Positions 34,174-55,065 of a stretch of 55,065 nucleotides of DNA are shown here, piece by piece. A program made the translations under genes and the position numbers. Position 1 is the first letter of the stretch. Each line of letters opens with the position of its first letter. The DNA lies in IMG/VR virus record IMGVR_UViG_3300021598_001004, positions 1 through 55,065 of that record; one strand, written 5' to 3'. The notes under the pieces are model-generated. The model was not told the origin of the DNA and made no database searches. It worked only from the letters and a program-made list of their open reading frames with translations. This stretch comes from a virus.

Positions 34174-34177
34174 ACAG

Positions 34178-35057: not shown

Positions 35058-36044
35058 ATGTCAGAATTTCAAAAAATACCTTTTGAGCAAGTTGTAAGAT
35101 TTGGTCAACGTACAATGTTAGACACTAATCTGTTTTCTGTGAGTTGGATCCTAGGAAGATTTTGTAACTACAGTTGTTCCTATTGTTGGCCCTATGCACA
35201 CAGTGACAAACCCGATCACCAAACCATTGAAGTTTACAAGAATACAATCGATCAAATAAAAAGTCAAGCCCGTAATAATGGATTTAATCGTTTTCATTGG
35301 AGTTTCAGTGGCGGAGAACCCACAGCCTACAAAGATCTGTTGCAATTAATACAACATCTTGACGATGGTCCAACTACACCGTACCAAAGTGTACACATGA
35401 CTACCAATCTCAGCCCGAGCATCAATTGGTGGAAAAGTTGGGCCAATGCTGTTAGTATGTTGCAGAGAAAGAGTGTTACAGCCAGTTACCATGTAGAACA
35501 TGCTAAAGAATCAGATTTCGTTAACAAATGCTTAAAATTAATGAACGAATATGTTTATGTTACTGTCAATCAAGTAATGGTACCTGAAAAGTTTTACGAA
35601 TTATATGAACGCTGCGAGAGGTTTCATAAGAAAGGCATTAATGTAACTTTAAAACCTCAGAGCGATCCTACTGCTAGTTTTGTAGTAAGTGGTTACACTG
35701 AGGAAATGATCAATCTAATGCAAACAGGATTTCCACAAACAGTAGAGGGAGAACAACTATATCAGATTGCTCTGTACGATCAAGAAGGCAGAGAATATCT
35801 GTTTGATCAAGCAGAAAGATTTAATGCATTTGGGTTTAACAAATTTAAAGATTGGAAATGTAATTCAGGATACCAAAGTGTCATTATACGAGGTAATGAA
35901 GTAAAAAGAGGATACAGTTGCAGAGATTTAAGATTGGGAACTTTAGAACAGGGATTTAGTTTATTTGGAAATCCTGTTTCGTGCATAACAGAAACTTGTG
36001 TAAGTTCTGCAGACAGCAAAATACCAAAAGAAAAAAATGTTTAA
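35058..36044 (+). CDS. Radical SAM protein 1
   Basis: 328 residues. The CxxxCxxC cluster motif is C36-C40-C43 (RFCNYSCSYCW), followed by FSGGEPTAY (about 105), the SAM-binding GGE motif. The C-terminal quarter has WKCNSGYQSV, GYSCRDL and ITETCVSSAD, suggesting an auxiliary Fe-S cluster. Radical-SAM enzymes use a [4Fe-4S] cluster to make 5'-deoxyadenosyl radicals for C-H chemistry. It is the closest neighbour in architecture to radical SAM 4 (39870-40787). No ribosome site is obvious before the ATG. Substrate unknown. Confidence 0.85.
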   Translation: MSEFQKIPFEQVVRFGQRTMLDTNLFSVSWILGRFCNYSCSYCWPYAHSDKPDHQTIEVYKNTIDQIKSQARNNGFNRFHWSFSGGEPTAYKDLLQLIQHLDDGPTTPYQSVHMTTNLSPSINWWKSWANAVSMLQRKSVTASYHVEHAKESDFVNKCLKLMNEYVYVTVNQVMVPEKFYELYERCERFHKKGINVTLKPQSDPTASFVVSGYTEEMINLMQTGFPQTVEGEQLYQIALYDQEGREYLFDQAERFNAFGFNKFKDWKCNSGYQSVIIRGNEVKRGYSCRDLRLGTLEQGFSLFGNPVSCITETCVSSADSKIPKEKNV

Positions 36045-37092
36045 TTTTTCAAATTTAAAACAAATTCATCTTGAAATTACAAACAATTGTCAAGCTAGTT
36101 GCCCTATGTGTAATAGAAATATAAATGGAGGAATAGACAATCCATTGATCAAAATAAAAAATTGGACTATTGATGATTTTAAAAAAGTAATAACTTTAGA
36201 AGTATTGCAACAACTTAGTAGTTATTATTTTTGTGGCAACTTTGGAGATCCAATTCTTAATAACGATCTAATAAAAATGTGTGAATATAGCAATAATCAT
36301 TCGCCAAATACCGGAATTGTAATCCACACTAACGGTAGTGCTAGATCTGTTGATTGGTGGAAAACTTTAGCGAATGTCCTACCAAAAAATCATAGAGTAG
36401 TGTTTGCATTAGATGGTCTATTCGATACTCATCAATTATACAGAATAGGAACCAAGTTTGAAACTGTTTTAGAAAATGCCAAAACATTTATTGAAGCCGG
36501 GGGTATTGCCGAATGGGTTTTTATAAAATTTAAACACAATGAACATCAAGTTGACGAAGCAAGATTACTATCTCAACAATTAGGTTTTAAATATTTTACT
36601 CTTAAAAATTCTAGTAGATTCATATTAGAACCTAAAATAAATGTAATGAATAAACAAAAGAAAATAACCCATTTTATAGAACCAGCATCAGATGTACCTT
36701 TAAAATTTATAGATAAAAAGATAATTGATAATTATCAACAAATAGTTGACAAATCTATCATTAGTTGCAAGTCTAAAAATGATAAAGAAGTTTACATTGA
36801 TGCATATGGAGATCTTTTTCCATGTTGTTGGTTAGCTAGCGTTCCGTACAGTTATATTAATCCAGATGAGGCGTTAGCAGTAAGGCAAAAGATGAGAGAG
36901 CAACACGATGAATTGGTAAAGAAATTAGGATCTGTTAATACTTTTGAAAGATCAATCAAAGAGATCATAGAAAGCCATGCGTATCAAACTGTATGGGATG
37001 ATTTTTGGTCTATCAATAAACTAGTGACTTGTGCTAGAACCTGTGGCACAAATACTGATTTTATAAAACCAAGAGACCAAATTGTTCAATAA
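36037..37092 (+). CDS. Radical SAM protein 2 (SPASM-like C-terminus)
   Basis: 351 residues. C18-C22-C25 (NCQASCPMCNR) is the radical-SAM motif; YYFCGNFGDPIL replaces the usual GGE and is shared by the 54020 paralogue. The C-terminus has Cys in SCKSKND, IDAYGDLFPCCW and CARTCGT, as in SPASM/twitch auxiliary-cluster domains. Such enzymes modify peptides or sugars. Starts 8 bases inside radical SAM 1, so translation is coupled. Confidence 0.87.
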   Translation: MFNFSNLKQIHLEITNNCQASCPMCNRNINGGIDNPLIKIKNWTIDDFKKVITLEVLQQLSSYYFCGNFGDPILNNDLIKMCEYSNNHSPNTGIVIHTNGSARSVDWWKTLANVLPKNHRVVFALDGLFDTHQLYRIGTKFETVLENAKTFIEAGGIAEWVFIKFKHNEHQVDEARLLSQQLGFKYFTLKNSSRFILEPKINVMNKQKKITHFIEPASDVPLKFIDKKIIDNYQQIVDKSIISCKSKNDKEVYIDAYGDLFPCCWLASVPYSYINPDEALAVRQKMREQHDELVKKLGSVNTFERSIKEIIESHAYQTVWDDFWSINKLVTCARTCGTNTDFIKPRDQIVQ

Positions 37093-38380
37093 AACATTTT
37101 GTCCATTACCATGGATCCATTTAGCTACTAGACCTAACGGCGATGTCCGTTTATGTTGCACTGCTAACGCATCTGGTGCGGGTACCGCAGACAAAGAATC
37201 AGGCCTTGTTAAAGATAATGGCGTAAACATGAACTTACAATCACACTCAATTGAGCAAGTGTGGAACAGCAGTTTTATGAAGCAGACACGGCTACAAATG
37301 CTTAATGGAGAACAACCATACAGTTGTACCAAATGTTATCAAGAAGAACTCAACGGTATTGTTAGTAAACGCCAATGGGAAACTGTTGTGTGGAAAGAAC
37401 GATTAAACCTTGATGCCGTTGTGTCTAGAACAACCCCCGACGGAACTTTGCCTGTAGACATTCCTTACTTTGATTTACGCCTGGGGAATATGTGCCAGTT
37501 AAAGTGTATTATGTGTAGTCCACACGATTCAAGTAGTTGGATTAAAGAATGGAAAGCACAGTATCCAAAATACAAAACAATAGAACTTAAACAAGATCAA
37601 GGATGGAACATTGACTTTGACTACACTTGGTATCAAAAAGGTGAATTCTTATCAAGTTTAAGAACGCAATCACACAATATCAAAGAGTTGTACTTTGCAG
37701 GTGGTGAACCGTTGCTTATACCAGAACACTATAAAATATTAGAGTTTATGGTTGAAACAGGTAATGCTAAGAACTGTGTACTACGTTATAACAGCAACGG
37801 CATGGAACTGCCGGAGAAGTTATTTGAGTTGTGGAATTATTTTAAGCAGGTTAAATTTAACTTTAGTGTAGATGCTTTTGGCCAACGTAACGATTATATT
37901 CGTTATCCTAGTAAATGGAATAATGTTGTTACTAACTTAGAAAGATTAGACGACACACCCGATAACATTATTATTAATATTGCTTGTGCTGTACAGTTGC
38001 TTAACGTATCAAGCATACCAGAATTAGCCAATTGGAAGATTAGCAAGAACTTTAAAAAGATTAATTTGCCACCGCATGGCGCTGGCATTATTGGAACACA
38101 CTTAGTCTACTTGCCCGATTACTTAAATGTACGTGTTCTACCAAAAGAAATTAAAGATCAAGTAGCAAAACGCATTGAATATTTTTGTGCTAAACATATG
38201 GGCTACAAAGACTTTGCTACAGACCCATATGGTGCTCAACGTTGGATGGGATTAATCAAATACATGAATTCAGCAGACTGGACTGATAAAATTCCTACAC
38301 TACTAGATTATTTAGAAACCACAGATACACAGCGTGGAACTAATTATCGAGATGTATTTCCAGAGTTGAGCGTTTTGTAA
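37082..38380 (+). CDS. Twitch-domain radical SAM protein 3
   Basis: 432 residues from a TTG start. An N-terminal Cys-rich module (CPLPWIHLATRPNGDVRLCC, then CTKC at 82-85) precedes the radical-SAM motif C138-C142-C145 (MCQLKCIMC) and YFAGGEPLLI (about 208). This order, with a SPASM/twitch-like cluster domain at the N-terminus, matches radical SAM 5 (40780-42042). Substrate unknown. Overlaps radical SAM 2 by 11 bases and the convergent gene by 37 bases. Confidence 0.85.
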   Translation: MFNKTFCPLPWIHLATRPNGDVRLCCTANASGAGTADKESGLVKDNGVNMNLQSHSIEQVWNSSFMKQTRLQMLNGEQPYSCTKCYQEELNGIVSKRQWETVVWKERLNLDAVVSRTTPDGTLPVDIPYFDLRLGNMCQLKCIMCSPHDSSSWIKEWKAQYPKYKTIELKQDQGWNIDFDYTWYQKGEFLSSLRTQSHNIKELYFAGGEPLLIPEHYKILEFMVETGNAKNCVLRYNSNGMELPEKLFELWNYFKQVKFNFSVDAFGQRNDYIRYPSKWNNVVTNLERLDDTPDNIIINIACAVQLLNVSSIPELANWKISKNFKKINLPPHGAGIIGTHLVYLPDYLNVRVLPKEIKDQVAKRIEYFCAKHMGYKDFATDPYGAQRWMGLIKYMNSADWTDKIPTLLDYLETTDTQRGTNYRDVFPELSVL

Positions 38381-39207
38381 TAACGGCTGTTTCTAAAACG
38401 TTCAAACCAAGATGGTTTAAATCTTACAACAGGTGTTTTAAATCCTAGTTGGTTAAGCCAAACATTAATAGCCGCAAGTTGTTCGTCAGTTGCGGCATAG
38501 CGTACATATCTGTGGAACCCCATAACTTTAACGTAATCTGTATTATAGGTATCTTGTAAAACAGTTTCGTTAACTGTTTCTCCCCTCCAGAATATTCTAG
38601 CAAATTTACGAGGAACAAATGACTCGTCAACTAGATGATTAGCAAGATATGAATACAATACTAGTTCACCACACTTACCTTTTAAATACCAGCTACAAAA
38701 CTTTTCAATATCACCTAAACTTTTAACTAGTTCAGTACGCCATACAAACGGACATTCTGACGCAAACTGTTTTTCTCTTACAGGGTCTACATTAAAGTAT
38801 TCAGCAAATCGTTTAATAACTGGTTCCCAGTTAGAATCATAAGCGATCCAACCGCAACCTAGTACACCTGCCCAGTCAGTCGTACTGCAAGGTTTAACAA
38901 AAAAGTCTTTAGGGTCTAAACATAAAAACTCTTCGTCTTTTATATAGTTGACCATTTTAAGTTTATAAACTTGGTGGCGCTCAAATCCATCAGGGACATG
39001 CAAGTATTCGTACCATTTAGGAAATAATAAAACAAGTTTATGTTTTGTGTAGTATGGCTCTAACATGTCCTTCCAGCGTTGCTTATCTGGAAAACGTTCG
39101 TTAATAGTAACCCAATGTGTACATGGCTGTAGAAACTTACTGATGCTTTCGGCCTGTAGTCGCATTACATCAAAATCTTGCTCACACGCAATAGTTACTA
39201 AATCCAT
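38344..39207 (-). CDS. Glycosyltransferase-like protein (DUF6492-type pattern)
   Basis: 287 residues from ATG 39207, 1 base after the PIG-L stop; the longer frame upstream lies inside the PIG-L gene. MDLVTIACEQDFDVMRLQAE at the N-terminus, and FLCLDPKDFFVKP (about 95) as a possible metal/sugar-nucleotide site, resemble phage and bacterial GT-like proteins. The C-terminus is basic. The enzymatic role is an inference. Forms one minus-strand operon with PIG-L and two radical-SAM genes. Confidence 0.55.
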   Translation of the reverse strand: MDLVTIACEQDFDVMRLQAESISKFLQPCTHWVTINERFPDKQRWKDMLEPYYTKHKLVLLFPKWYEYLHVPDGFERHQVYKLKMVNYIKDEEFLCLDPKDFFVKPCSTTDWAGVLGCGWIAYDSNWEPVIKRFAEYFNVDPVREKQFASECPFVWRTELVKSLGDIEKFCSWYLKGKCGELVLYSYLANHLVDESFVPRKFARIFWRGETVNETVLQDTYNTDYVKVMGFHRYVRYAATDEQLAAINVWLNQLGFKTPVVRFKPSWFERFRNSRYYKTLNSGNTSR

Positions 39208-39208
39208 C

Positions 39209-39895
39209 TTATATCCTATGGTAGTATTGGTAAAATGCTTCTGCGTATTCACAACGTGCTTCGATACCCCGGTATTTTGCCCAATCAAGCATGCCTTTAC
39301 TAGACAAGTAGTTGTCTTGTGGACGCACTTGCGATTTAAAAATTTTAGCAAATGAATCAATTTTTTCTTGTACTACTTGCTCAGTTAATTCTACATATAC
39401 ATTCGGAGTGTCATAATCTGTTTTATATAACTTATGCACATACGTTGGGTTTTCCAGTATGTACATAGTCTTAGGACAGTAGTTAAACGTTGGACGAGTT
39501 GCCGCTATCACTGCTTCATAGACAGTAGTGTGATCAATGTGAAAACTAGGACCCATGGTCATAATGATATCTGGCGTAATTTCCATAATGGCATTTTCTA
39601 CTAATTTGACTAGTTTAGAACGAGGAAACAAATCTAACTTGGAATCAAAGTCTAATGGCAATTGAAACTCGCCAGTTGTGGGACGTACCCATGTACCATT
39701 AGCCCATTTAACAAATTGTTGATACTCTGCTAGACGTTCTTCTCTAGTTACAGTTTTGTGATGTAGTTCTATATCCGAAGCCGCAACTAAACAAAAGTAA
39801 AAATCATACTGATCTCGATTCTTTAAAAAGAATCCACCGGCACCTATATAACTGTCATCACTATGCGGCTCAATTATTAGAACTTTTTGTTTCAT
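39209..39895 (-). CDS. PIG-L/LmbE-family deacetylase
   Basis: 228 residues. The metal-site signature is complete: EPHSDDSYIG (about 9-18; usual form PHPDD), REERLAEY with Arg/Glu, and HIDHTTVY (about 119). Family members remove N-acetyl groups from GlcNAc-containing substrates or other amides, as in mycothiol and aminoglycoside synthesis. Overlaps the radical SAM 4 gene by 26 bases. Substrate unknown, but an amino-sugar would fit the glycosyltransferase next door. Confidence 0.86.
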   Translation of the reverse strand: MKQKVLIIEPHSDDSYIGAGGFFLKNRDQYDFYFCLVAASDIELHHKTVTREERLAEYQQFVKWANGTWVRPTTGEFQLPLDFDSKLDLFPRSKLVKLVENAIMEITPDIIMTMGPSFHIDHTTVYEAVIAATRPTFNYCPKTMYILENPTYVHKLYKTDYDTPNVYVELTEQVVQEKIDSFAKIFKSQVRPQDNYLSSKGMLDWAKYRGIEARCEYAEAFYQYYHRI

Positions 39896-40787
39896 TTTTA
39901 TTCTCTTTAGTTAGCGGAATGTCTGCGGCACATGTACACCAGTCTCTAGTGCAATCAACAGGTTGATTGGGTACAGTAAAGGTGTCTTGATAGATATTAC
40001 CTAAACTTCCACCAACACGGCAGGTAGCACGATGTACTTCTCCATCCCAATTGATCATGAGACTTTCGAGACCTGCATTACATTGCCATCCTTTGAATTG
40101 ATTTAGATGTTGTTTGATTACATCGTTGGCATGAATGATCTGTTCATCGTCTATGCGGCAATTGGGTTTAGCTGTGGCATTCTTGTTTAATATCCACTCA
40201 AGATCTTGACCTTCGTATCTAAGATCATCAAACACATTGTGATCTCCTTCTGTCCAACGGATACGCCGTACAGCATATCTAATACCTAGTTCATCAAACT
40301 TTTTAACCACTGTACGAACACCGTGCATGTGTTTATAGTGTGCCATTACATTAACATGAAAGTCACGCTCAGTACTGTCATAAAATTTCATTATATTATC
40401 AAATATTCTCATCCATTCCTGTTCAAAGTGCAGACTGAACACGATGTGATTATAAAACATTTCATGATTTAAATACCATTGATATCCTCTAGTTCCATTG
40501 GTAGTTAAGTTTACCCAAAAAATATCTTTGCGTTTGAAATATTCTAATAAGTCTTCTATATCTGGATGCACACAGGGTTCCCCTCCCGTGAGGCTAATAC
40601 GCAAAGGTTTACCTATTTCGCAGAGTCTATCTACGGCTCGTTCTAATAAATTTATATCCGTATGCGGACTAAAGTTATCATGTATCTCTGCAGGGCAATA
40701 TGAGCAATCGTAGTTACAGCGTTTACCAAGATTCCACTCGATCTTGATTTGATCTTGATGTGGCCATACTGAGGTTATTTTATACAT
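39870..40787 (-). CDS. Radical SAM protein 4
   Basis: 305 residues. C24-C28-C31 (RCNYDCSYCPA) and SLTGGEPCVH (about 65) define the core. The C-terminus has WQCNAGLESL, RATCRVGGSLG and DCTRDWCTCAADIPLTK, a Cys-rich set close to that of radical SAM 1. The two are probably paralogues acting in parallel branches. Overlaps radical SAM 5 by 8 bases. Confidence 0.86.
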   Translation of the reverse strand: MYKITSVWPHQDQIKIEWNLGKRCNYDCSYCPAEIHDNFSPHTDINLLERAVDRLCEIGKPLRISLTGGEPCVHPDIEDLLEYFKRKDIFWVNLTTNGTRGYQWYLNHEMFYNHIVFSLHFEQEWMRIFDNIMKFYDSTERDFHVNVMAHYKHMHGVRTVVKKFDELGIRYAVRRIRWTEGDHNVFDDLRYEGQDLEWILNKNATAKPNCRIDDEQIIHANDVIKQHLNQFKGWQCNAGLESLMINWDGEVHRATCRVGGSLGNIYQDTFTVPNQPVDCTRDWCTCAADIPLTKENKNETKSSNN

Positions 40788-42042
40788 AGGCAGTAAATTC
40801 CGGAGTCACTTCTTCAAATCGTTGTTCTCTTGTGACATCAAGTCTATGATTAAATTCTACGCAGTCTTTCCACAGATGGCTTTCGTCTTTAGAATTAAGA
40901 AAATTGATAACACCTTGTATTTGTCCCATAGTTAAATTATAAAGCATTGGATGTTCTTTTATTAATTTAAATTTTTCAATCCGAGGTTTAACATTTTCTA
41001 ATCTTTCTATAGCTTGAGTTTTTAGTTCTGGAGGAAGTGTTTGAATAGATAGAACTTTAGGATACTTTACCATATTGGTATAGAATACGATTCCTAAATC
41101 ATTTAAAAAGTATTCTATCATTTCATCCAGTATTAATACATTACTAATCTGTACAGCTACAGCGCCTACTATTCTACTGACATTAGGAATAGTCTGTATC
41201 TGTTTAATATTGTTAATTAATTCTGACCAACTTGCGTTTCCACGAATGTACTCATAACTTGAACCAATACCATCAATAGAAACATTTACAGCTACACTTT
41301 TAAATTTAGGCCAATATTCCCAAATAGTGCGATTGCTTTTACCTAAAATATTCAGGTTAGTGGCATACTTAATTTCTATTTGATTTCCGTAAGGAGCTAG
41401 CATATCTAGTATGCGATAATGCTGTGGATCCATTAGTGGTTCACCACCAGCAAATTCTACTCGTCTAAAGTAAGGAAGTAATTTTTTAAAAGAATTCCAC
41501 CAGTTAGGATTATCCTCAAATTTATCCAAGTAGGGTTTGTTTATAAGATTAAGTTTTCTTACATTTTTAGAAATAAAATTTCCTTCTTTGTCGTAAAATT
41601 CCTCAACCTGTTTCCAATCATTCCAACTAGTGCTATCTGTAGGGTTGCACATTCGACATTTTAAATTGCAAAGATTATTCAATTTAATCTCTATTGTTGG
41701 AATTTCGAAAGGCATTGTAAAATCTTGATCCATTTTCTTTAATGAATTAGGATAAAGATTAATACGTGCTTCTGGAATTTCTCCTTTAATGTGTCGCTGT
41801 CTTAAACTTTCAACCCCTTGATCTTCTAAACTAAAACAAGGTTCACACTCCGGAGGACGTTCTCCGTTTAAAACTTGTTTACGAATGCGTCTCATAGTAT
41901 CATTATTCCAATGATCTTCTAAAGAAGCATCTTGTATAAATCCAATAGGATAACTGCGACAACAAACTTTAATTGCGCCGTCTTCACGTGTTGCTAATCC
42001 TGTAAAAGGATGCATACAAAATGTATTATGATTATAGTTCAT
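40780..42042 (-). CDS. Twitch-domain radical SAM protein 5
   Basis: 420 residues. The N-terminal module has C9 (FCMHPFTGLATREDG), C27-C28 and C66-C69, then C125-C129-C132 (LCNLKCRMC) and EFAGGEPLMD (about 195). Same architecture as radical SAM 3. Starts at ATG 42042, back-to-back with the oxygenase operon. Confidence 0.86.
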   Translation of the reverse strand: MNYNHNTFCMHPFTGLATREDGAIKVCCRSYPIGFIQDASLEDHWNNDTMRRIRKQVLNGERPPECEPCFSLEDQGVESLRQRHIKGEIPEARINLYPNSLKKMDQDFTMPFEIPTIEIKLNNLCNLKCRMCNPTDSTSWNDWKQVEEFYDKEGNFISKNVRKLNLINKPYLDKFEDNPNWWNSFKKLLPYFRRVEFAGGEPLMDPQHYRILDMLAPYGNQIEIKYATNLNILGKSNRTIWEYWPKFKSVAVNVSIDGIGSSYEYIRGNASWSELINNIKQIQTIPNVSRIVGAVAVQISNVLILDEMIEYFLNDLGIVFYTNMVKYPKVLSIQTLPPELKTQAIERLENVKPRIEKFKLIKEHPMLYNLTMGQIQGVINFLNSKDESHLWKDCVEFNHRLDVTREQRFEEVTPEFTAYV

Positions 42043-42069
42043 GAACTATTTAACTGGGTTATAGTAGCA

Positions 42070-42077: not shown

Positions 42078-42081
42078 TTTC

Positions 42082-42747
42082 ATGTTAACAAAAACTAACT
42101 ATCAAGTTTCTTTAGATTTAATCGAAATTGCATTGAAAGAAATTCCCAGTGATAACTTTAGATATACAATCAATCAACCAACAGATTCTTTCTTTTATGA
42201 TCCTTGGAAAATTAAAGAGGAATTTAAAAATACTATTTGGGAATCTATTTTAAAAACAATCAATGAACCGATCGGTGAAGCTAGGATAATAATTTTAGAA
42301 CCTGGTAAATGTTACCAGGGACACGCTGATATAGATGATCGGTATCATCTAAATTTATGTTCTGATGAATCGTTTTTGATAGATTTAGAAAACAACGTGT
42401 TGTATAAGTTAACAACAGACGGATTTTGGTACAACATGAATGCCGGGATTAGGCATACAGCGATGAATGTTGGACGAGTCACAAGAATACAATTAGTTGT
42501 TAGACAGTTATTAAAAAACAATATTCTTAAAAACAGCGTTCCGGTATGCATTAAGTTTAATGATATTACTGACGAACATGCGAGGTTTATTTTTGATGAG
42601 AAATTAAGTCCGTTATTAAATCATTTTGATAAGAGTGGGCTTATAAATAAGTTTGAGTATGGGAAAACATTTGTTAAATTTAATATCGAAAAAGAATCTA
42701 AAGACACACTTAATAAAATGCTTCCAGAAAACTTTGAATTATTATGA
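42082..42747 (+). CDS. Fe(II)/2OG oxygenase-like protein 1 (Asp/Asn hydroxylase-type)
   Basis: 221 residues from ATG 42082; the longer frame to 42010 crosses the promoter. HxD ligands H81-D83 (GHADIDD), distal H125 and Arg132 (GIRHTAMNVGR) give the 2-His-1-carboxylate plus 2-oxoglutarate Arg of an aspartyl/asparaginyl-hydroxylase-type barrel. It would hydroxylate a C-H bond with O2 and 2-oxoglutarate. First gene of an oxygenase operon. Confidence 0.76.
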   Translation: MLTKTNYQVSLDLIEIALKEIPSDNFRYTINQPTDSFFYDPWKIKEEFKNTIWESILKTINEPIGEARIIILEPGKCYQGHADIDDRYHLNLCSDESFLIDLENNVLYKLTTDGFWYNMNAGIRHTAMNVGRVTRIQLVVRQLLKNNILKNSVPVCIKFNDITDEHARFIFDEKLSPLLNHFDKSGLINKFEYGKTFVKFNIEKESKDTLNKMLPENFELL

Positions 42748-43388
42748 TAATATACACTCCCATTGATATTAAATGTAAAATTCCTGATCAAGATTTACTC
42801 ATAGAATATGTTAAGAAGAATTATTTGGATAAAAATATTATACCTAATGCTTTATTATGTCCATTAGTTGTTAGAAAGGCAGTGACCGATTGGAGAGATG
42901 CTTCTCAAATTTTTACAGAAGATAAACTTCAAGATCTCACCGATAACGATCCAACTTACTATCGACCCGGAATCAAAGAATTAATGCCAGAATTAATAGA
43001 AATTTTAGAATCTTTGCCATTTAAACAAATTATCGGGGGAGGCCTATATCTTCAAACAGGTCCGGTCGATGCTCATCATGATATAACTATTGACTTCACA
43101 TATCCTAAAAGTCCGGAAAGATATAATGTTTTATTAACTCCTCATTACGATCAAGATTCTTTTTATATTGCAAAAGAGATAACTGGGGAAAAAATATATC
43201 CTAAGATATTAAAAGATTACCCAATTTATGCATTTAATGATCAGAAGATGTTTCATGGAGCAGATCCTGTTTTAGAAAATAGAGTCATTATGATCTGTGC
43301 AGGATTGATAGATCATGAAAAACATGAAAATCTTATAGAAAGAAGTGCAAATAAATTTAAAGAATATGTAATAAGATATGAGGATTAA
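42744..43388 (+). CDS. Fe(II)/2OG oxygenase-like protein 2
   Basis: 214 residues. H111-H112-D113 (DAHHDITID), H171 (KMFHGAD) and Arg180 (ENRVIMI) fit the double-stranded beta-helix pattern, and GGGLYLQTG precedes the first strand. ATGA overlap with the gene upstream. Divergent from proteins 1 and 3, so probably a different substrate. Confidence 0.68.
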   Translation: MIIYTPIDIKCKIPDQDLLIEYVKKNYLDKNIIPNALLCPLVVRKAVTDWRDASQIFTEDKLQDLTDNDPTYYRPGIKELMPELIEILESLPFKQIIGGGLYLQTGPVDAHHDITIDFTYPKSPERYNVLLTPHYDQDSFYIAKEITGEKIYPKILKDYPIYAFNDQKMFHGADPVLENRVIMICAGLIDHEKHENLIERSANKFKEYVIRYED

Positions 43389-43934
43389 ATGTCAATTAAG
43401 TTTATAGGTAATTTTTTTGCAGGAAAATGGGATAGTATAATTGACTCTTTATGTATTGAAGAAGGCGATCGGAGAGCGTTTGGTGTAGACTTTTATAAGA
43501 ACTTTGATGGTCGATTTGACAATAACATCCAAATGTTGATTGATGCGGGCTATAATAAAGTTGACACTGTTGAGTGGTTTAATTATTATCCTATAAAACA
43601 TTTTGATAATTCGTGTGTTATAGAATTTGAAAAATTTGTTGGAATGAAATGTGCTAGAGCATGGATTAGTAAAATACGTCCAGGAAAATATGCTCCAATA
43701 CATCAAGACATCGATGATAACATTGAAGAATATCTATCTCAGGGAGAAGTAATTCGGTTCAGTACTTTTATCAGTCACCCTTATCCGGGAGGAGTTTTTG
43801 TTTGTAAAAATCAATGTTTTCATTGCGAACTTTCTGGTAATACATATCAGTGGGACCATTACTTAGATTATCATGCAGGTGGTAACTGCGGGCTCCATGA
43901 TCAATTTATGTTTCATTTTTTAGGAATAAAGTGA
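43389..43934 (+). CDS. Oxygenase-like protein 3 (pair with 4)
   Basis: 181 residues. PGKYAPIHQDID gives H105-D107, and a distal YHAGGNC (H162) near the end. Paralogous to protein 4: both have GY(N/D)K...A/V.W, an FxxW/KxxxxF segment, an IxPGxYxPxHxD strand and a closing F(H/N)F-G. The C-terminal half has extra Cys, including NQCFHCE. Probably Fe(II)/2OG-type, less certain than protein 1. Confidence 0.62.
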   Translation: MSIKFIGNFFAGKWDSIIDSLCIEEGDRRAFGVDFYKNFDGRFDNNIQMLIDAGYNKVDTVEWFNYYPIKHFDNSCVIEFEKFVGMKCARAWISKIRPGKYAPIHQDIDDNIEEYLSQGEVIRFSTFISHPYPGGVFVCKNQCFHCELSGNTYQWDHYLDYHAGGNCGLHDQFMFHFLGIK

Positions 43935-47016: not shown

Positions 47017-47539
47017 CATAAACAAATTTATTTTTAAAGATAAAATTAATAAATTTATACCAAAATTAAAAAATGAATTTGTGACTGTTCACGGTTACGA
47101 TACTGGTAACATTCCCCTCTACAGCGAATATATTGGAAACAGTTTAGATCCTCAAAATAAATGGAAAATGCTTGTAATTAAAATTATGGGCAAATGGGAA
47201 GATAAAAATTTATCTCGATACCCAATATTAACTGAACTAGTTAAAAGTTTTGGTGATACTTGTCGTAGTGCAGGTTACAGTGTTTTAGACGCAGGCGGAG
47301 TTGTTCCGATGCACACTGATACAGAAGAAGGTCACGAAAATTATGTTATTTGTCACGTTCCTCTAATTATTCCTCTCGGAGATGTCGGATTCTCAGAAGG
47401 AGATTATCGAGGAAGATGGTTCGAGGGGGAATGTTTTTTATTAGATGTAGAAACTCCTCATTCGGTTTGGAATCACACATCATCTCCTAGAGTTGTTGTG
47501 TTATTAGAACTTCTTAAGGAAGATGTTTATGAAATTTAA
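47006..47539 (+). CDS. Fe(II)/2OG oxygenase-like protein 7 (Asp/Asn hydroxylase-type)
   Basis: 177 residues from ATG 47006, with GGAG 6 bases upstream; an ATG at 46994 is also possible. VPMHTDTEEGH gives H103-D105, ETPHSVWNH gives H152, and SPRVVVLLE gives Arg162. ICHVPLIIPLGD between them is the typical central strand. Best match to the aspartyl/asparaginyl hydroxylase family in this cluster. Confidence 0.8.
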   Translation: MIYDINKFIFKDKINKFIPKLKNEFVTVHGYDTGNIPLYSEYIGNSLDPQNKWKMLVIKIMGKWEDKNLSRYPILTELVKSFGDTCRSAGYSVLDAGGVVPMHTDTEEGHENYVICHVPLIIPLGDVGFSEGDYRGRWFEGECFLLDVETPHSVWNHTSSPRVVVLLELLKEDVYEI

Positions 47540-48140
47540 TAATATAGCAATTACTGGTCATACCAGCGGGATTGGCAAAGGATTATATGATTATTTTCTT
47601 AATTTAAATTGTAGAGTTAAAGGATTTAGCAAAGACAACGGTTTCGATATCGGTGATAGATCTAATCAAGATATTATTATTTCTTATACAAAAGATTGTG
47701 ATTTGTTTATCAATAATGCCTATCATTATTATTCTCAAGTAGAACTAATGAAATTATGGCACCAACAACATTGGAATGATCCTCATTTTATTATAAGTAC
47801 AAGTTCTATAGCTGCAGAACCATTAGCAGATATACCTAAAAATTTTCCATGGCTTAAAAACTACGGAGAAGAAAAATATGCTATTAATAAAGTCAGCTGG
47901 GATATAAATCATAGCGGTAGTAAATGTAAAAGCATAGTTATTATGCCAGGTGTTTGTCAAACTAATTTTTATAATCCCTATGACACAGAAAATCAGAATG
48001 GTATAGAATTATATAATAAGGTAATGGATACCAATAGCATAATTACAATTGAAGATCTTACAAAGACTGTTGATTTAATTTTACAGAGTATCAATGGTAG
48101 AAACTTTATTTCAAGTATAACGGTACAAAATGGATATTGA
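47529..48140 (+). CDS. Short-chain dehydrogenase/reductase
   Basis: 203 residues from ATG 47529 (an ATG at 47523 is in frame but too near the ribosome site). TGHTSGIGKG (Gly-rich NAD(P) loop), FINNAYHY, STSSIAA (catalytic Ser) and YAINK (Tyr-xxx-Lys) are all in order, so it should be an active oxidoreductase on an alcohol/ketone. Short but complete. Confidence 0.88.
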   Translation: MKFNNIAITGHTSGIGKGLYDYFLNLNCRVKGFSKDNGFDIGDRSNQDIIISYTKDCDLFINNAYHYYSQVELMKLWHQQHWNDPHFIISTSSIAAEPLADIPKNFPWLKNYGEEKYAINKVSWDINHSGSKCKSIVIMPGVCQTNFYNPYDTENQNGIELYNKVMDTNSIITIEDLTKTVDLILQSINGRNFISSITVQNGY

Positions 48141-48549
48141 CAATTGGATTGATCGTATTACCCAACCTAGAGATGAACTTGGTGGATTTAGCATTTGTCC
48201 GTATGCTAAAGGTTCTAAGTATGAAATTATTGAAACTGATGGATCAGATATCGATCCACCTCCTTGGAATTTTGAGCTCATCATTTATAAATTACCGAAT
48301 GACTATTCCGAAGAAGAAATATTTAAAATTGCGAAAGAATATAACAGCATTTATCCAGAGATGGTTTTCTTACCAGATCCTAAAAATAGAATAACCTACA
48401 TTAATGGTATACAAACTAATAATGGAGAACACAATTTAATTCTGTGCCAGTGGAGAGACGAACTGAATAAAGCGAGAGATAAATTATCTAAATCTAGTTA
48501 TTATACGCACTGGAGTGAAGAATATTTAAAAGAGATTTTAGAAACATGA
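48130..48549 (+). CDS. Unknown small protein in pathway operon
   Basis: 139 residues. GGFSICPYAKGSKYEII is a notable conserved-looking motif and INGIQTNNGEHNLILCQW another. No domain recognised. Overlaps SDR by 11 bases and the next radical-SAM gene by 4 (ATGA), so it is an integral pathway member. Confidence 0.6.
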   Translation: MDIDNWIDRITQPRDELGGFSICPYAKGSKYEIIETDGSDIDPPPWNFELIIYKLPNDYSEEEIFKIAKEYNSIYPEMVFLPDPKNRITYINGIQTNNGEHNLILCQWRDELNKARDKLSKSSYYTHWSEEYLKEILET

Positions 48550-49991
48550 ATCACGCATTAATTTTTTGTGTTCACGACTTGGCATTAAGGAGATTGGCAG
48601 GCCCATATAGGATAGCCACATTTCTTCGCGAACACGAATGGGATGTAGAGGTAATAGATTACGTTAAATCATTCACGCTAGAAGAATTAAAAGAAGTAGC
48701 TAAAATGCGTATAAGTTCTAAAACTATTTTTATTGGTTTCAGTTCTTTTTTTAATGCATGGAGCGACGACGTTGATATTTTTATTGACTGGATTAAATCT
48801 TCTTATCCTTACATTAGAATAATTGTAGGAGGACAAAGTAAACCTCTAATTAATACTAAAAAAGTCGATTACTATATTCACGGCTACGGAGAATTAGCAG
48901 TATTAGAACTTGCCAGATCTTTTGTAGGAAATTCGAATAATAAAATAACCCTTGATCCGTTATATCTTGGAAAGAAAAAAGTTATTAGCGCAAATAAACA
49001 TTATCCTGCTTTTCCTATGAATCGCCTCACAATAAAATATCAAGATCGAGATGATCTACAACCCTGGGAATGGTTGACGATAGAGTGCTCTAGAGGTTGT
49101 AAATTTCAATGTCCATATTGTAATCATCCGGTTCTTGGTGTTAAGGGAGATTATACTCGATCGGCAGAAGATTTTAAGGAAGATATGAAAGAAAATTGGG
49201 AAAGGTGGGGAATCAAAAATTACTACATGGCCGATGAAACTTTTAATGATCATAGTGAAAAAATAGAAAAATATTCAGATGCTATACAACAATTAAATCT
49301 TGATACTATTTTTGCAGGATTTATTCGTGCAGACCTTTTAGTTTCTAGAAGAAGAGATTGGGAACCTTTATTAAAGATGGGATTTGTTGGACATTTTTAT
49401 GGTATAGAAACTATGAATTATGAAACAGCAAAATTTATTGGAAAGGGAATGAGACCGGAAAAACTCGGAGATGGATTAATCGAAGTAAAAAATTATTTTT
49501 TAAGCAATGGTCCTTACAGAGGGGCACTCGGAATAGTAGTAGGACTTCCGCACGAAACATTAGAAAGTCAGATAAAAACTTTTAATTGGATTGAAAAAAA
49601 TTGGCAAGGTGAATGTGTCCATGCATTTCCTTTAGAAATACACGGATCAGAAACTAATGATGTGCAATCTACTATATCAAAAGATATGGGAAAATATGGG
49701 TATCGACATTCAGATATACCCGAGCCAGAACCTCCAGAGGAAGTCAAATTTTTTGGATCGGCCGAAACACGAGTGAAGCAAGCTAACGATAAAGTTATAT
49801 GGGAAAATGATAACATGACTTATGCAGATGCGTGTAAAATAGTCGATGACTTTTATGTTAAAATTGTAAGAGATGAGATTATAATGAAATCTAGCATCTG
49901 GACTTTTGCTGATTATACCTATCCCGATATTCCTCTTCAAGAAGTATTAGATAAAGTAAAATATTTTGATCCTCCAAATGATTTATACTAA
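48546..49991 (+). CDS. B12-binding-type radical SAM protein 6
   Basis: 481 residues. The N-terminal 150 residues (RRLAGPYRIATFLREHEWDV, IFIGFSSFFNAW, IIVGGQSKP, YYIHGYGELAV) have the strand pattern of a cobalamin-binding domain, although the His-on ligand motif DxHxxG is not seen. The radical-SAM motif is C185-C189-C192 (RGCKFQCPYC). YYMADETFND and GIETMN follow, as in the B12-radical-SAM class, which includes methylases, cyclases and hopanoid-type enzymes. Confidence 0.85.
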   Translation: MNHALIFCVHDLALRRLAGPYRIATFLREHEWDVEVIDYVKSFTLEELKEVAKMRISSKTIFIGFSSFFNAWSDDVDIFIDWIKSSYPYIRIIVGGQSKPLINTKKVDYYIHGYGELAVLELARSFVGNSNNKITLDPLYLGKKKVISANKHYPAFPMNRLTIKYQDRDDLQPWEWLTIECSRGCKFQCPYCNHPVLGVKGDYTRSAEDFKEDMKENWERWGIKNYYMADETFNDHSEKIEKYSDAIQQLNLDTIFAGFIRADLLVSRRRDWEPLLKMGFVGHFYGIETMNYETAKFIGKGMRPEKLGDGLIEVKNYFLSNGPYRGALGIVVGLPHETLESQIKTFNWIEKNWQGECVHAFPLEIHGSETNDVQSTISKDMGKYGYRHSDIPEPEPPEEVKFFGSAETRVKQANDKVIWENDNMTYADACKIVDDFYVKIVRDEIIMKSSIWTFADYTYPDIPLQEVLDKVKYFDPPNDLY

Positions 49992-51018
49992 TTGGGATCC
50001 GCTTAAAGAAATTATAGTAGGTAACTGTTTTGTTGATCATAGTCGAAATAAATTATCTCAAATTTTTATCGAAACTAAAGAAGATTTAGATAATCTAGCA
50101 GACTATTTGATTAAAATGGGAATTAAAGTATATCGTCCCGATGTAACCTATTTTAAAGAAGATATTGATCTAAGCAATTTTAAAATTAAATATGCAACTG
50201 CTCCTATTGTTCCCCGAGATCAATATCTAGTTTATGGAAATACCATCTATCAAACATATACTAGTATGCCTGATAGATATTTAGACAGCATAAATTACAC
50301 ACATATTTTTAAGGAATTTTTTGATAGAGGTTATAATTGGATAAGCATGCCTCCACCAAAATTAGATACACTAGTAGATAGATGGTGGGCAAACGGTGAA
50401 TATGTCTATCACGAGCAATTAAAGAATCAAGTTCTATGGCATACAGCTACAATGTTTAAGTGCGGAGACAAATTAATTACTAATATCAAAGGACCGGGAA
50501 ATACTCTTGGACTCGAATGGATGAAACGTAATCTTCCAGAAAATACTATTATTGATGCAGGCAATACACATCAGAAAGGTTTTGGACACATAGATCACGG
50601 ATGGTTTATGACTAACGATGATCTAATTTTTTGCGTAAACAAAACTTGGGTACCAGAACCGTTGCATAATAAGCAGATAGTAGAGCTACAAGATCATTTT
50701 GAGAAATTCGACGATACAAAATTTATCAATGACTATCGAAACACAACAGGCAAATTTAGTGATGCTTGGATCGATAAGTGGCTAACCGAATGGAAAGGGT
50801 ATGCACAAGAAGTGTTTTTTGATAGTAATGTTTTAGTTATTGACAGCAACAATGTTTTATTCAGCAATCATCAGCCCGGTATTTTTAAAGTCATGGAACG
50901 TTACAGCATTAACTGTCATGTAGTACCACAACGCCACGGATTATTCTGGGAAGCAGGAATCCACTGTTTAACTTTGGATCTATCTCGTGAGGGTAGAAAT
51001 CGATCTGTAATCAGTTAA
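49978..51018 (+). CDS. Amidinotransferase (glycine/inosamine amidinotransferase-like)
   Basis: 346 residues from ATG 49978, 14 bases inside the radical SAM 6 gene. PIVPRDQYLVYGN (about 80), FGHIDHGWFM (about 200) and LFWEAGIHCLTLDLSREG (about 320-337) carry the Asp, His and catalytic Cys expected of the AGAT/StrB1 family. It would transfer an amidino group from arginine to an amine, forming a guanidino product. The C-terminus overlaps the convergent aminotransferase by 39 bases. Confidence 0.85.
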   Translation: MIYTNWDPLKEIIVGNCFVDHSRNKLSQIFIETKEDLDNLADYLIKMGIKVYRPDVTYFKEDIDLSNFKIKYATAPIVPRDQYLVYGNTIYQTYTSMPDRYLDSINYTHIFKEFFDRGYNWISMPPPKLDTLVDRWWANGEYVYHEQLKNQVLWHTATMFKCGDKLITNIKGPGNTLGLEWMKRNLPENTIIDAGNTHQKGFGHIDHGWFMTNDDLIFCVNKTWVPEPLHNKQIVELQDHFEKFDDTKFINDYRNTTGKFSDAWIDKWLTEWKGYAQEVFFDSNVLVIDSNNVLFSNHQPGIFKVMERYSINCHVVPQRHGLFWEAGIHCLTLDLSREGRNRSVIS

Positions 51019-52164
51019 GGCTTGTAAAAATCGATATTCAATGTCTTCAAACCAATCGGAAGGTGCATCGAGAGGAATAACAAACAAAACTCCAGTTCCA
51101 CCTTCGTTCCACATTCCGGCATTAATCCCATATTGATATAAAAATCTTTCAAATGTACTGTCCATGGGCTTTTCGTTTAGTAATACTAGATTAAATAAAA
51201 GTCCATAATTATTATAATCCTTAATTAATTCTTTGTCTTTAAATCGCTGACACATTAATTTCCCCCATCTTTCTAATTTAGGTTGATTAATTAATAACTG
51301 TTCTCGATCTAATATATTCATATATTCTAATGCAGAATAAATCCCACTTAGATTGAAACTGTAACTAAAGCCATGCACAAAAACATCATATTTAATTTTA
51401 TCAAATATTTTTTGATTAGCACAAACGGCACTGAGAGGAAAATAACCTCCGGTTAATGCTTTACCCATTGTAAAAATATCTGGAATTATTCTTCCAGTCC
51501 AACCAAAAAAAGAACCAGTCTTTCCTCCGCACACGGCGATGTCATCAACAATAAGAACTATATTTTTGCGAGTGCATTCTTCTCTAAGCCCGTTCCAAAA
51601 GTTTTCACCAGGATCGTATAATCCGTTTTGCCAACTGGCAGTTTCTACAACTACGGCACATAAATCTTCAGTAATCATCTCTAAGTTGTAATCGCTGATG
51701 ACACATCTTGAATCTTTTCCGAATACATCTGTCATATAAGTAGCATCACTGACACTGCTACTTAAAAATGTACTTCCATGATAAGATTTTCGAAATCCCA
51801 AAAATTTATTTTTTTTGTTATACATTTGAGCTAACCTTAGTGCTCCTTCGATCGCATCGCTTCCACTCAATGCAAATGCACTTTTGTATCCTCCGCTCAT
51901 TTTACTAATTCGATCGGTTAATTCTAACACAGCATCATTTGTTGTGTAGAATTCTCCGCCGCAAAATGGATTATTGATCATTCTAAGAGATACGAAATCA
52001 ATAATGTCTTTTCTTTTAAATCCTAGGGGAAAACAACCGCAGGCACCCAAACTTAGATCTAAATACTGATTACCATTTTCGATAAACCCATAGTCAGTAT
52101 ATTCTTCTATTTTACGAATCGGTTGTTGATTATTTTTTGAATAGGGAAATATAATATTGGTCAT
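50980..52164 (-). CDS. Class-III PLP aminotransferase
   Basis: 394 residues. ALSGSDAIEGALRLAQ (about 100), SYHGSTFLSS (about 128), VDDIAVCGGKTG (PLP-binding Asp about 208) and MGKALTGGYFPLSAV (PLP Lys about 233) are ordered as in the ornithine/GSA/omega-transaminase fold. Normally DEV(Q)TG; here DDIAVCGG, so its substrate range may differ. Overlaps 52161-52793 by 4 bases. Confidence 0.9.
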   Translation of the reverse strand: MTNIIFPYSKNNQQPIRKIEEYTDYGFIENGNQYLDLSLGACGCFPLGFKRKDIIDFVSLRMINNPFCGGEFYTTNDAVLELTDRISKMSGGYKSAFALSGSDAIEGALRLAQMYNKKNKFLGFRKSYHGSTFLSSSVSDATYMTDVFGKDSRCVISDYNLEMITEDLCAVVVETASWQNGLYDPGENFWNGLREECTRKNIVLIVDDIAVCGGKTGSFFGWTGRIIPDIFTMGKALTGGYFPLSAVCANQKIFDKIKYDVFVHGFSYSFNLSGIYSALEYMNILDREQLLINQPKLERWGKLMCQRFKDKELIKDYNNYGLLFNLVLLNEKPMDSTFERFLYQYGINAGMWNEGGTGVLFVIPLDAPSDWFEDIEYRFLQALTDYRSISTLTR

Positions 52165-52793
52165 AAAAAACTCAGTGACAACGAAATTCTTTTTTTATGT
52201 GGATCTAAATTTTCTACACTATGAATAGTTTTAGTATCTAGTTTGTGCCAGGCGCATTCTTTTATTTTAATTTTTTCTACTAAATCTAATCTGTCATATG
52301 GAAATACTGTTTGAGCATATGTTTTTAAATGACTGTATTCTACCTTTGGAGTCCAAAAACATGTGGAGGTTTTATCTCCTCCTGTTTCTATGATATAATT
52401 GTAAGCGTAATTTCTCATTTCATCAATGTGTGGGGTGATTGTTTTTCCACTATGCATTGATTGTATGCTAATGTGTATTACATCAAGATCGATATTCTCT
52501 CTAACCCATTTTTTAATTTCATCGTTAACTTCTAAAAAATCAAAATTTGCTAGATCATCAAAATATTTGAAAGCATCAGATAAATGATAACCCAAAGAAT
52601 CCTGCGAATTATATTCTATACCAACAATAGCATCAATAATTTCTTGGCTTGCTTCTATGTTTAGATTTTTTCTAGCATATTCGACGAATGATGCCGAGTT
52701 TTGAAAATTATGAATAGGGTGTTCTACTATGTGAATTATTTGATCTCTAATATATTTTGGTACGGGCGGTAAGTCAACATAAGTAAGATACAT
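52161..52793 (-). CDS. Fe(II)/2OG oxygenase-like protein 8
   Basis: 210 residues. ITPHIDEMRN gives H122-D124, and KTIHSVENLDPHKKRISL gives H191 and Arg202. A TATAAATA late promoter lies 4 bases before the ATG, and the AAA-type transaminase is translated from the same mRNA. Confidence 0.72.
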   Translation of the reverse strand: MYLTYVDLPPVPKYIRDQIIHIVEHPIHNFQNSASFVEYARKNLNIEASQEIIDAIVGIEYNSQDSLGYHLSDAFKYFDDLANFDFLEVNDEIKKWVRENIDLDVIHISIQSMHSGKTITPHIDEMRNYAYNYIIETGGDKTSTCFWTPKVEYSHLKTYAQTVFPYDRLDLVEKIKIKECAWHKLDTKTIHSVENLDPHKKRISLSLSFL

Positions 52794-52797
52794 GCGG

Positions 52798-52805
52798 TAT
52801 TTATA
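52798..52805 (-). promoter_or_regulatory. T4-type late promoter TATAAATA, 4 bases from ATG
   Basis: Exact TATAAATA on the minus strand with CCGC before the ATG at 52793, the same 4-base spacing as at 42070. The mRNA should be leaderless. Confidence 0.72.
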
Positions 52806-52810
52806 GACTT

Positions 52811-53413
52811 ATGCCAACTAAAGAAATTTTTCCCATACTGATTCATACAGCAGAGTATTCTGGAGATATTAAACAACTTCAGAATATGTTATTCCCTAAG
52901 ATACAACCGTGGTTTGAAGAAACCAAAAAGAATAATCAATCGAGCATACGCGGAAAAGGTATATGTTCATATAACATAAAACGAGATTTAAATTTAGATC
53001 CATCCTTTATTGAATTAACTGAATTTATAAACAAAGAAGCAGGAACATATTGGAACAGATTAGGATATAGTAAATCAGGTAAACCAGGTGTTTATGAAAT
53101 GTGGGTGAATCGATACGAACAAGAATCATTTATTGATATGCATAATCATAGTCCTATACACATGACTGCTAGTTTTTATCTTCAGCATCCTACAAATGGT
53201 GGAAATATTATATTCGAACATCCCAATGCTATCTTGCTAAAACACCAGCCATATGATTTTGATCGAATGCGTTACAAATCATTTGAGCAAGAAATTACCG
53301 TGAAAACAGGAATGTTAATAATATTTCCCGGGTATATAAATCATAAAACTCAACCCAATCTTTCGAATGAAGATAGAATTATTATAGGATCCAATATATG
53401 CAACGTCATTTAG
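52811..53413 (+). CDS. Fe(II)/2OG oxygenase-like protein 9 (TIGR02466-type pattern)
   Basis: 200 residues. MWVNRYEQESFIDMHNHSPI, SFYLQHP, GGNIIFEHP, then TGMLIIFPGYINHKTQPN with H178 and Arg189, matches the pattern of the 'putative 2OG-Fe(II) oxygenase' family in marine bacteria and phages. H111/H113 are proximal ligand candidates; an HxD is not seen, so it may use a variant site. Confidence 0.72.
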   Translation: MPTKEIFPILIHTAEYSGDIKQLQNMLFPKIQPWFEETKKNNQSSIRGKGICSYNIKRDLNLDPSFIELTEFINKEAGTYWNRLGYSKSGKPGVYEMWVNRYEQESFIDMHNHSPIHMTASFYLQHPTNGGNIIFEHPNAILLKHQPYDFDRMRYKSFEQEITVKTGMLIIFPGYINHKTQPNLSNEDRIIIGSNICNVI

Positions 53414-54036
53414 AACCAGAAATAATGAATGAAAAAAATCAAGTATTGGCGTTTCATCACGGTAGTAGAGATTATGGAATCAAGGGATTTCTTGACTTTT
53501 ATAAAAAATATGTCAATCTCAAAAAAGGTAAAGTAGTCGATTTGGGATGTGGTACTGGATCGTATCTATTTGCATTAGAGACGCAATATCCAGACCTATT
53601 AATAACCGGCTATGACGCGAGTGAGTATATGATAGAACTTGGACAAACTATTGTAGAAAATATCAGTAGTGGAGTACGATTAAGATGCGAATATTTTAAA
53701 AATGTTAAAGATTCTGCTGATTGCGTAATATCAACTAATACACTTCATCACATACATGATTCTAATATTTTTTGGAACTGTGTAAAGAATATTTCAAACA
53801 ATGTATTCATTATGGATTTGGTTCGTCCTAAAAACAAAGATATTGCAAAAAAAATTGTTGGTCAATTGGCTGAAAAAGATAGCGAATTATTTAAAAACGA
53901 TTATTACAATTCGCTCTTAGCAGCATTCAATGCCGACGAATTAAGACAGCAGATTTTAGATACAAAATTAAATCTAATTATCGAGGGAAATACTGATTTT
54001 CTACAAGTAGCAATTATATATGGCCAAATACAATAA
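53398..54036 (+). CDS. SAM-dependent methyltransferase
   Basis: 212 residues. VVDLGCGTGSYLFAL (motif I, about 47) and GYDASEYMI (acidic ribose-binding Asp) with TNTLHHIHD form a class I Rossmann methyltransferase. Small-molecule type by resemblance. Overlaps its neighbours by 16 and 17 bases. Confidence 0.88.
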   Translation: MQRHLEPEIMNEKNQVLAFHHGSRDYGIKGFLDFYKKYVNLKKGKVVDLGCGTGSYLFALETQYPDLLITGYDASEYMIELGQTIVENISSGVRLRCEYFKNVKDSADCVISTNTLHHIHDSNIFWNCVKNISNNVFIMDLVRPKNKDIAKKIVGQLAEKDSELFKNDYYNSLLAAFNADELRQQILDTKLNLIIEGNTDFLQVAIIYGQIQ

Positions 54037-55065
54037 AATTAAAAATATACAAATTGAAACTAGCACGATTTGTAATGCTGCCTGTCCACAATGTCTCAGA
54101 GAATGGTACGAAGGAGATCATAGCTTTTTTAAACAAACTTATATCCCAACAGAATTCTATGAAGAAAGAATACCAGATCAAATTTATAATGATTTAGAAA
54201 GAATAAATTTTTGTGGAACAATGGGAGATCCGTGTGCGGCACCTAATTTTATAGATGTTTGCAGAATAATAAAAAAGAAAAATCCGAATATAAAATTAAC
54301 TATAGCAACAAACGGAGGATTGAGATCCGTCGAATGGTGGAAAGAATTAGCATCTGTATTAGATCGGACTGATATAGTTATTTTTGGCATTGACGGGCTA
54401 GAAAATACAAATTGGATTTATCGAGTAAATGTGAAGTGGAATAAATTAATGGAGAATGTGAAAGCATTTATTGATGCAGGCGGACATGCCTGGTGGCAAT
54501 TTATTGTTTTTAAACATAACGAAAAACAAATTGAAGAAGCTAGAAATTTTTCTCAACAAATGGGATTTAAGAATTTCTTTACTATCTATAATAATAGATT
54601 CTTTGTTGAAGAACTTTTTGGAAGAGAAACGTTTGGTGCCGACGGAAAAAGATTAGAACCTCCAACCATAGAAGAAGAAAAATCAATACTGCTAAAACTT
54701 GATAAAAAATCAACTGAAGAGTGGGGAGAGAATTCCGAGAAGTCTTGTATAAAATGTCAGTCATTAGAAAAGGACGAATTATACATTGATGCCGACACAC
54801 ATCTATTACCGTGTTGTTTTATAGCAGGCGCAAAATTTACATTGAACCCGACAGATCCGGACGGGTACTATAAATTATGGACAACCTACGGAGGAGATAA
54901 GTTAAAATTATCTTCGCACAACTGGAATGATATTTTAAACAGTGAATTTTATCTAGAACTAGAAAGGAGTTGGACTAAGAAATTTTCAGAAGGAAGATTG
55001 CTTGTTTGCTCCGGAGCATGTTCAGTTGACTTGGAAGCAAAATTTACCTTATATGTAAACACAAA
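54020..55065 (+). CDS. Radical SAM protein 7 (SPASM-like), 3' end beyond window
   Basis: 348 residues are visible and the frame is open at the right edge. C18-C22-C25 (ICNAACPQCLR) and NFCGTMGDPCAA correspond to the same positions of radical SAM 2, as do ATNGGLRSVEWW, VFGIDGLENT-type, FKHNEKQIEEARNFSQQMGF and ELYIDADTHLLPCCF. A C-terminal CSGAC echoes CARTC there. The two are clear paralogues, at opposite ends of the cluster. Confidence 0.87.
   Translation, partial: MAKYNKIKNIQIETSTICNAACPQCLREWYEGDHSFFKQTYIPTEFYEERIPDQIYNDLERINFCGTMGDPCAAPNFIDVCRIIKKKNPNIKLTIATNGGLRSVEWWKELASVLDRTDIVIFGIDGLENTNWIYRVNVKWNKLMENVKAFIDAGGHAWWQFIVFKHNEKQIEEARNFSQQMGFKNFFTIYNNRFFVEELFGRETFGADGKRLEPPTIEEEKSILLKLDKKSTEEWGENSEKSCIKCQSLEKDELYIDADTHLLPCCFIAGAKFTLNPTDPDGYYKLWTTYGGDKLKLSSHNWNDILNSEFYLELERSWTKKFSEGRLLVCSGACSVDLEAKFTLYVNT

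Follow-up and report, generated by a model that had tools for sequence, protein, structure and literature searches.

We analysed a 55,065-base linear IMG/VR virus record (IMGVR_UViG_3300021598_001004), the whole of which is referred to here as the window, and found that its region 35058–55065 covers the left-hand two thirds of a mobile cassette carried by phages, with genes for a probable tailoring pathway. The region holds 24 genes, most of which overlap their neighbours by 4–39 bases; a preliminary description had reported these overlaps correctly but counted 21 proteins. It had also proposed one complete pathway. One pathway is well supported insofar as the genes are a mobile set inherited together, but completeness is not, since about one third of the cassette lies beyond 55065. 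A search past the window end located the remainder in contig G001 (IMGVR_UViG_3300032093_008018), which is ~ 99.9% identical to the window across the shared 36 kb and carries the cluster 11.9 kb further, to its position 48596. The whole cassette spans ~ 32 kb and ~ 34 genes, including 11 radical S-adenosylmethionine (SAM) proteins and 10 candidate Fe(II)/2-oxoglutarate (2OG) oxygenases. Megablast of positions 35000–55065 against the phages collection returned zero matches, and no description of this cassette was found among open-licence PMC papers.

Fifteen other contigs were read at length against 37 reference gene families, with gene order scored by tau and permutation. In 13 of these, 24–32 of the 37 families recurred with gene order and relative strand conserved. 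|tau| was 0.69 in G011 and 0.84–1.00 for the remaining twelve, each value lying at the permutation floor (p ≤ 0.0005); the compared contigs are related to each other, and the order tests are therefore not independent. A shuffled order was seen in G033, while G034 shared only eight families. The flanks of the cassette differed among phage groups, consisting of families 25–29, 262–271 or 285–293. The same ordered block recurs with differing flanks and at differing positions, which is how a mobile unit would behave; that the cassette genes form one conserved, collinear, mobile and co-inherited unit is well supported. The genes were not scattered in related phages, and the radical-SAM and most of the oxygenase assignments made earlier held. 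Sister cassettes also contained VirX1-type, Trp-halogenase-like flavin halogenase homologues (families 223–225, e.g. L008:12801–14384 and L029:12833–15725) matching VirX1 (6qgm) at E 3e-87; the window phage’s own cassette has no halogenase.

Rotated cassettes were observed at loci L203, L209, L212 and L213, where radical-SAM family 47 follows directly after radical-SAM family 72. Such an order would fit a block that was at one stage circular.

Compared with G001, the window has ~ 48 bases fewer at each of three sites, at about 22491, 24010 and 49975. The last of these falls at the junction of the B12-radical-SAM and amidinotransferase genes, where the extra 48 bases were present in two other assemblies, and it is therefore likely that the window record lost them by deletion or in assembly. 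The gene overlap at 49966–49991 is probably a product of this loss, which probably also altered the 3′ end of the B12-radical-SAM gene at 48546–49991.

Domains were assigned with curated Pfam and NCBIfam cut-offs, supplemented by Protein Data Bank (PDB) profile matches, PHROG matches and two AlphaFold models searched with Foldseek. All seven radical-SAM proteins claimed for the region, with starts at 35058, 36037, 37082, 39870, 40780, 48546 and 54020, exceeded the Pfam cut-off for PF04055 and kept the CX3CX2C motif. This motif was retained in every member of all 14 radical-SAM families examined, which places the proteins in the Radical SAM superfamily. Four further radical-SAM proteins lie past the window in G001, namely a KedN5-like B12-radical-SAM protein, a Tes/HMPTM-like one and two of B12 type. 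Viperin membership was rejected (best score 45 bits against a cut-off of 180).

The nine oxygenase-like proteins of the preliminary description fared less evenly. A recognisable Fe(II)/2OG family or fold was obtained for six of them, three by Pfam over cut-off, one by PDB profile match and two by AlphaFold fold, the match of the latter two (43389 and 43931) to AspH being partial, with a template-modelling (TM) score of only ~ 0.45. The other three (42744, 44482 and 52161) were assigned by the HxD..H motif only, and PDB profile searches with 44482 and 52161 gave no meaningful match. The HxD...H triad was invariant in families 55–62 and 77/78 (the genes at 45048, 46994 and 52811 were not separately aligned). 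A reduced hhalign run linked orthologue pairs, the paralogous families 59 and 60, and families 63/64 with 67; in that same run the other oxygenase families were not confidently linked to each other. The tenth candidate, past the window in G001, has an invariant H177-D179-H233.

As to the remaining enzymes, Pfam confirmed the PIG-L protein, the class-III aminotransferase and the methyltransferase, and a profile match to HsvA (E 4e-36) confirmed the amidinotransferase. The short-chain dehydrogenase/reductase (SDR) and glycosyltransferase (GT)-like proteins reached sub-threshold matches only (Epimerase and DUF6492, respectively). All 24 genes are listed in the table.

Genes of the cassette within the window (positions 35058–55065), with the basis of each assignment (pLDDT, predicted local distance difference test)
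Product (family)	Position	Strand	Basis
Radical-SAM protein (47), one cassette end	35058..36044	+	PF04055 E 1.6e-11; present in 15 of 17 contigs compared
Radical-SAM/SPASM protein (48)	36037..37092	+	PF04055 and PF13186
Twitch-domain radical-SAM protein (51)	37082..38380	+	NF033640, 421 bits, over cut-off
GT-A-like protein, DUF6492 (weak)	38344..39210	-	PF20102 E 0.002, below cut-off
PIG-L-type N-deacetylase	39209..39895	-	PF02585 E 4e-8; phrog_11796
Radical-SAM protein (53/54)	39870..40787	-	PF04055 E 1.7e-13
Twitch-domain radical-SAM protein (50)	40780..42042	-	NF033640, 342 bits, over cut-off
AspH-like Fe/2OG oxygenase (55/56)	42082..42747	+	Profile match to beta-hydroxylase 7v4f E 4e-17; weak PF05118; invariant H81-D83-H125-R135
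Putative Fe/2OG oxygenase (57/58), motif only	42744..43388	+	Invariant H111-D113-H171; no Pfam match
AspH-like Fe/2OG oxygenase (60)	43389..43934	+	AlphaFold pLDDT 92.7; Foldseek AspH E 6e-6; invariant H105-D107-H162
Paralogue of the 43389 gene (59)	43931..44494	+	Alignment with family 60, invariant H/D/H; hhalign probability 100%
Putative Fe/2OG oxygenase (61/62), motif only	44482..45060	+	Invariant H76-D78-H151-R161
Asp/Asn beta-hydroxylase-family oxygenase (63)	45048..45695	+	PF05118 E 5e-14
444-aa protein (65)	45682..47016	+	AlphaFold pLDDT 80; weak Foldseek matches to PBCV-1 capsid GT 2p73 (E 7e-4) and NNMT (E 2e-3)
Asp/Asn beta-hydroxylase-family oxygenase (67)	46994..47539	+	PF05118 E 1e-21
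SDR-like protein (69)	47523..48140	+	PF01370 (Epimerase) E 0.005, below cut-off
Small protein C70	48130..48549	+	phrog_10325 E 9e-28; invariant C23, C106; in relatives, frequently the gene just upstream of the amidinotransferase
B12-binding radical-SAM protein (71)	48546..49991	+	PF04055 E 8e-12; PF02310 below cut-off
Pentein amidinotransferase (74)	49966..51018	+	Profile matches to HsvA (E 4e-36), StrB1, AGAT, SxtG
Class-III aminotransferase (75)	50980..52164	-	PF00202 E 2e-40
Putative Fe/2OG oxygenase (77/78), motif only	52161..52793	-	Invariant H122-D124-H191-R202
Fe/2OG oxygenase (80)	52811..53413	+	PF13759 E 7e-16; phrog_81; homologues in cyanophages Syn10 and S-RIM44
SAM-dependent methyltransferase	53398..54036	+	PF13649 E 9e-12
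Radical-SAM protein (49), cut by window end	54020..55063	+	PF04055 E 1.7e-12; complete in G001 at 35643-36704

Profile-level homology to HsvA, StrB1, AGAT and SxtG (E 4e-36 to 3e-24), together with a conserved His and Cys, identified the pentein amidinotransferase; H208 and C334 are presumably its catalytic residues. It belongs to a family separate from these enzymes, so far met in phages. At least 195 relatives were present in IMG/VR viral contigs. Scanning of GTDB genomes with two short peptide patterns only gave 25 pattern matches and no relatives, and absence of the family from bacteria is no more than suggested. Its commonest partners across 90 loci were the class-III aminotransferase (63 loci), C70 (48) and the Tes-like radical-SAM protein (44). 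Aminotransferase matches in the phages collection were set aside, as they look like cellular sequence within phage records.

A PDB profile search with C70 gave nothing meaningful, and tblastn of the 444-aa protein in the phages collection gave no match; from its predicted model, the latter possibly combines a GT-A-like N-terminal half with a methyltransferase-like C-terminal half, both weakly indicated. The true start of the GT-A-like gene at 38344 is probably near 39210. Past the window, G001 adds two SGNH-like proteins, a 417-aa protein without assignment, kinase-like proteins (families 89/93, resting on a weak match, E 5e-4), a SpeD-like protein, and a GNAT-like protein assigned by eye only. 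The Tes-like and SpeD-like labels were initial guesses from sequence that were afterwards tested. The SpeD-like family 97 (L062:4374–4727 and relatives) showed homology to SpeD/AdoMetDC (E 2e-5) with most members retaining the Ser, His and Cys, consistent with a predicted pyruvoyl decarboxylase of this type.

The nearest known case is a module of the Campylobacter phages CP220 and CPt10, and the cassette described here is a much larger variant of it. These phages encode 11–12 radical-SAM proteins per genome and carry an exchanged block, with an amidinotransferase and five radical-SAM genes, which as a whole differs from one phage to the other (PMC2853527, Timms et al. 2010). The enzyme families had been taken as known separately in phages; smaller combined relatives were already on record. 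Like the CP220 module, the cassette has several radical-SAM genes beside a homologous amidinotransferase (E 4e-42 to that of CP220) and is exchangeable as a block, its ordered genes recurring at differing genome positions in related phages. Three CP220 radical-SAM proteins are homologues of family 48 (E 2e-22 to 3e-26). However, the CP220 block comprises 12 genes with two GT-like proteins, compared to ~ 34 genes here, and only the radical-SAM and amidinotransferase profiles of the cassette match it, while the oxygenase, aminotransferase, C70 and SpeD profiles do not. A second likeness was found in the VirX1 locus of the cultured cyanophage Syn10 and in a locus resembling it in S-RIM44, also cultured. 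In both, fibre-like genes are followed downstream by two halogenases homologous to those of sister cassettes, with oxygenase homologues adjacent; the amidinotransferase and radical-SAM profiles, in contrast, match nothing in those stretches.

A fibre gene was also the recurrent neighbour of the cassette itself. In nine contigs, an Mtd_N (tropism-determinant) fibre protein lies directly outside the end marked by B12-radical-SAM family 72; all nine exceeded the Pfam cut-off, and each was its contig’s sole protein fitting the Mtd_N motif search. A wider scan of family 72 placed an Mtd_N neighbour by motif in 11 loci, of which one contig (L236) was new and the rest were mostly already counted. The window’s phage has at that place a 309-aa fibre-like protein without Mtd_N, which shares the C-terminal tip motif. 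The fibre link is strong but not universal.

Our leading proposal, advanced tentatively, is that the cassette encodes a pathway for a guanidinylated, oxidised and C-methylated group that decorates the virion, most likely the neighbouring fibre. The neighbouring fibre gene and the gene arrangement in cyanophages are the grounds for favouring virion decoration. The collinear gene order, the conserved catalytic motifs and the confirmed amidinotransferase also speak for the proposal, as does cyanophage S-SCSM2R, where the amidinotransferase adjoins KdsA, KdsB and glycosyltransferases. Going by enzyme families, a carrier would first receive an amine from the aminotransferase and next a guanidino group from the amidinotransferase, and radical-SAM C–H chemistry, B12-radical-SAM methylation, oxygenase hydroxylation and, in sister phages, halogenation would modify it further, while the GT-like, acetyltransferase-like, SGNH-like and PIG-L (deacetylation) proteins would attach or trim groups. 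On the fibre, such a group would either change how receptors are bound or act as a shield. Several observations weigh against this proposal. Adjacency by itself does not make the fibre the substrate; no Mtd_N neighbour was seen in G004, G007, G011, G012, G033 or G034 (the G007 contig stops short there), and at four loci radical-SAM family 47 takes this place beside family 72. The amidinotransferase is also met by itself, or in the company of few partners, where the remaining cassette genes are not nearby. The weak glycosyl-transfer assignments of 38344 and 45682 count in the same direction, and product, substrate and attachment are as yet proposals drawn from sequence.

The main rival, which we consider unlikely though a serious candidate, is that the cassette makes a diffusible, natural-product-like guanidino molecule, possibly derived from polyamines or amino acids, acting in or around the infected cell, e.g. 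against competing phages or bacteria. The enzyme mix does resemble secondary-metabolite clusters (KedN5-like B12 methyltransferase, Trp-halogenase-like proteins, SxtG/StrB1/HsvA-like amidinotransferase). A reduced core would fit such a product as well: the T4-like phage contig L037 carries C70, amidinotransferase, an adjoining SpeD-like gene and class-III aminotransferase with zero radical-SAM matches, and phage SpeD homologues can decarboxylate ornithine or arginine (PMC9992855). However, the cassette proteins searched included no recognisable non-ribosomal peptide synthetase, polyketide synthase, exporter or resistance protein, and a free molecule leaves the fibre-gene linkage unexplained.

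Rather doubtful in our judgement is a viral maturation system, in which several radical-SAM and beta-hydroxylase-like enzymes would hypermodify the adjacent tail-fibre chain post-translationally, bringing the chemistry of ribosomally synthesised and post-translationally modified peptides (RiPPs) to a virion adhesin. Proteusin-type RiPP clusters, such as that of polytheonamide, combine several radical-SAM proteins, B12-radical-SAM methyltransferases, an Fe/2OG oxygenase and a methyltransferase, and the cassette has the same combination. No RiPP precursor peptide was recognised among cassette open reading frames (ORFs) of at least 70 aa, no search having been aimed at shorter conserved ORFs.

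Modification of the infected host’s envelope or surface glycan, e.g. to block superinfection, appears improbable: the PIG-L, weak GT-like and SGNH-like proteins would suit it, as would the gene setting in cyanophage S-SCSM2R with its KdsA, KdsB and glycosyltransferases, but nucleotide-sugar synthesis, flippase and polymerase genes were not recognised in the cassette. Multi-enzyme base modification is known in phages, and a thymidylate-synthase homologue is located at 22492; hypermodification of phage DNA or RNA is nevertheless very unlikely, given that thymidylate synthase is common in phages, that this one lies outside the cassette, and that the cassette proteins include no recognisable hydroxymethylpyrimidine synthase, base kinase or base glycosyltransferase. 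Least credible of all is a set of auxiliary metabolic genes boosting host metabolism, as proposed for the smaller CP220/CPt10 module (PMC2853527), since the libraries used place these enzymes in no central pathway and whole-cassette conservation and fibre linkage fit a dedicated product better.

The window phage is an uncultured, presumably T4-like phage; the window itself holds no portal gene, and the affiliation is taken from G004. Portal and Gp23 genes of T4 type are present in two long relatives, one of 269,730 and the other of 289,070 bases, the portal of the former being nearest to large Pseudomonas (PA5oct-like) and Sinorhizobium phages (51–53% identity). An array of 27 tRNA genes, which together serve all 20 amino acids, adjoins the cassette at 25480–34265. 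Single ORFs of ~ 4,700–4,900 aa were seen in the related phages G004 and G016 (loci L085–L086 and L070).

Taken as a recurring mobile unit of fixed gene order with a recurrent fibre neighbour, the cassette draws together phage genes that had seemed odd and scattered, such as the radical-SAM and amidinotransferase genes of Campylobacter phages and the halogenase and oxygenases of cyanophages. Should the virion prove to be the target, phage surface chemistry would gain a new layer that bears on how hosts are recognised, and the search for the natural substrate of VirX1, a phage halogenase, would have a starting point.

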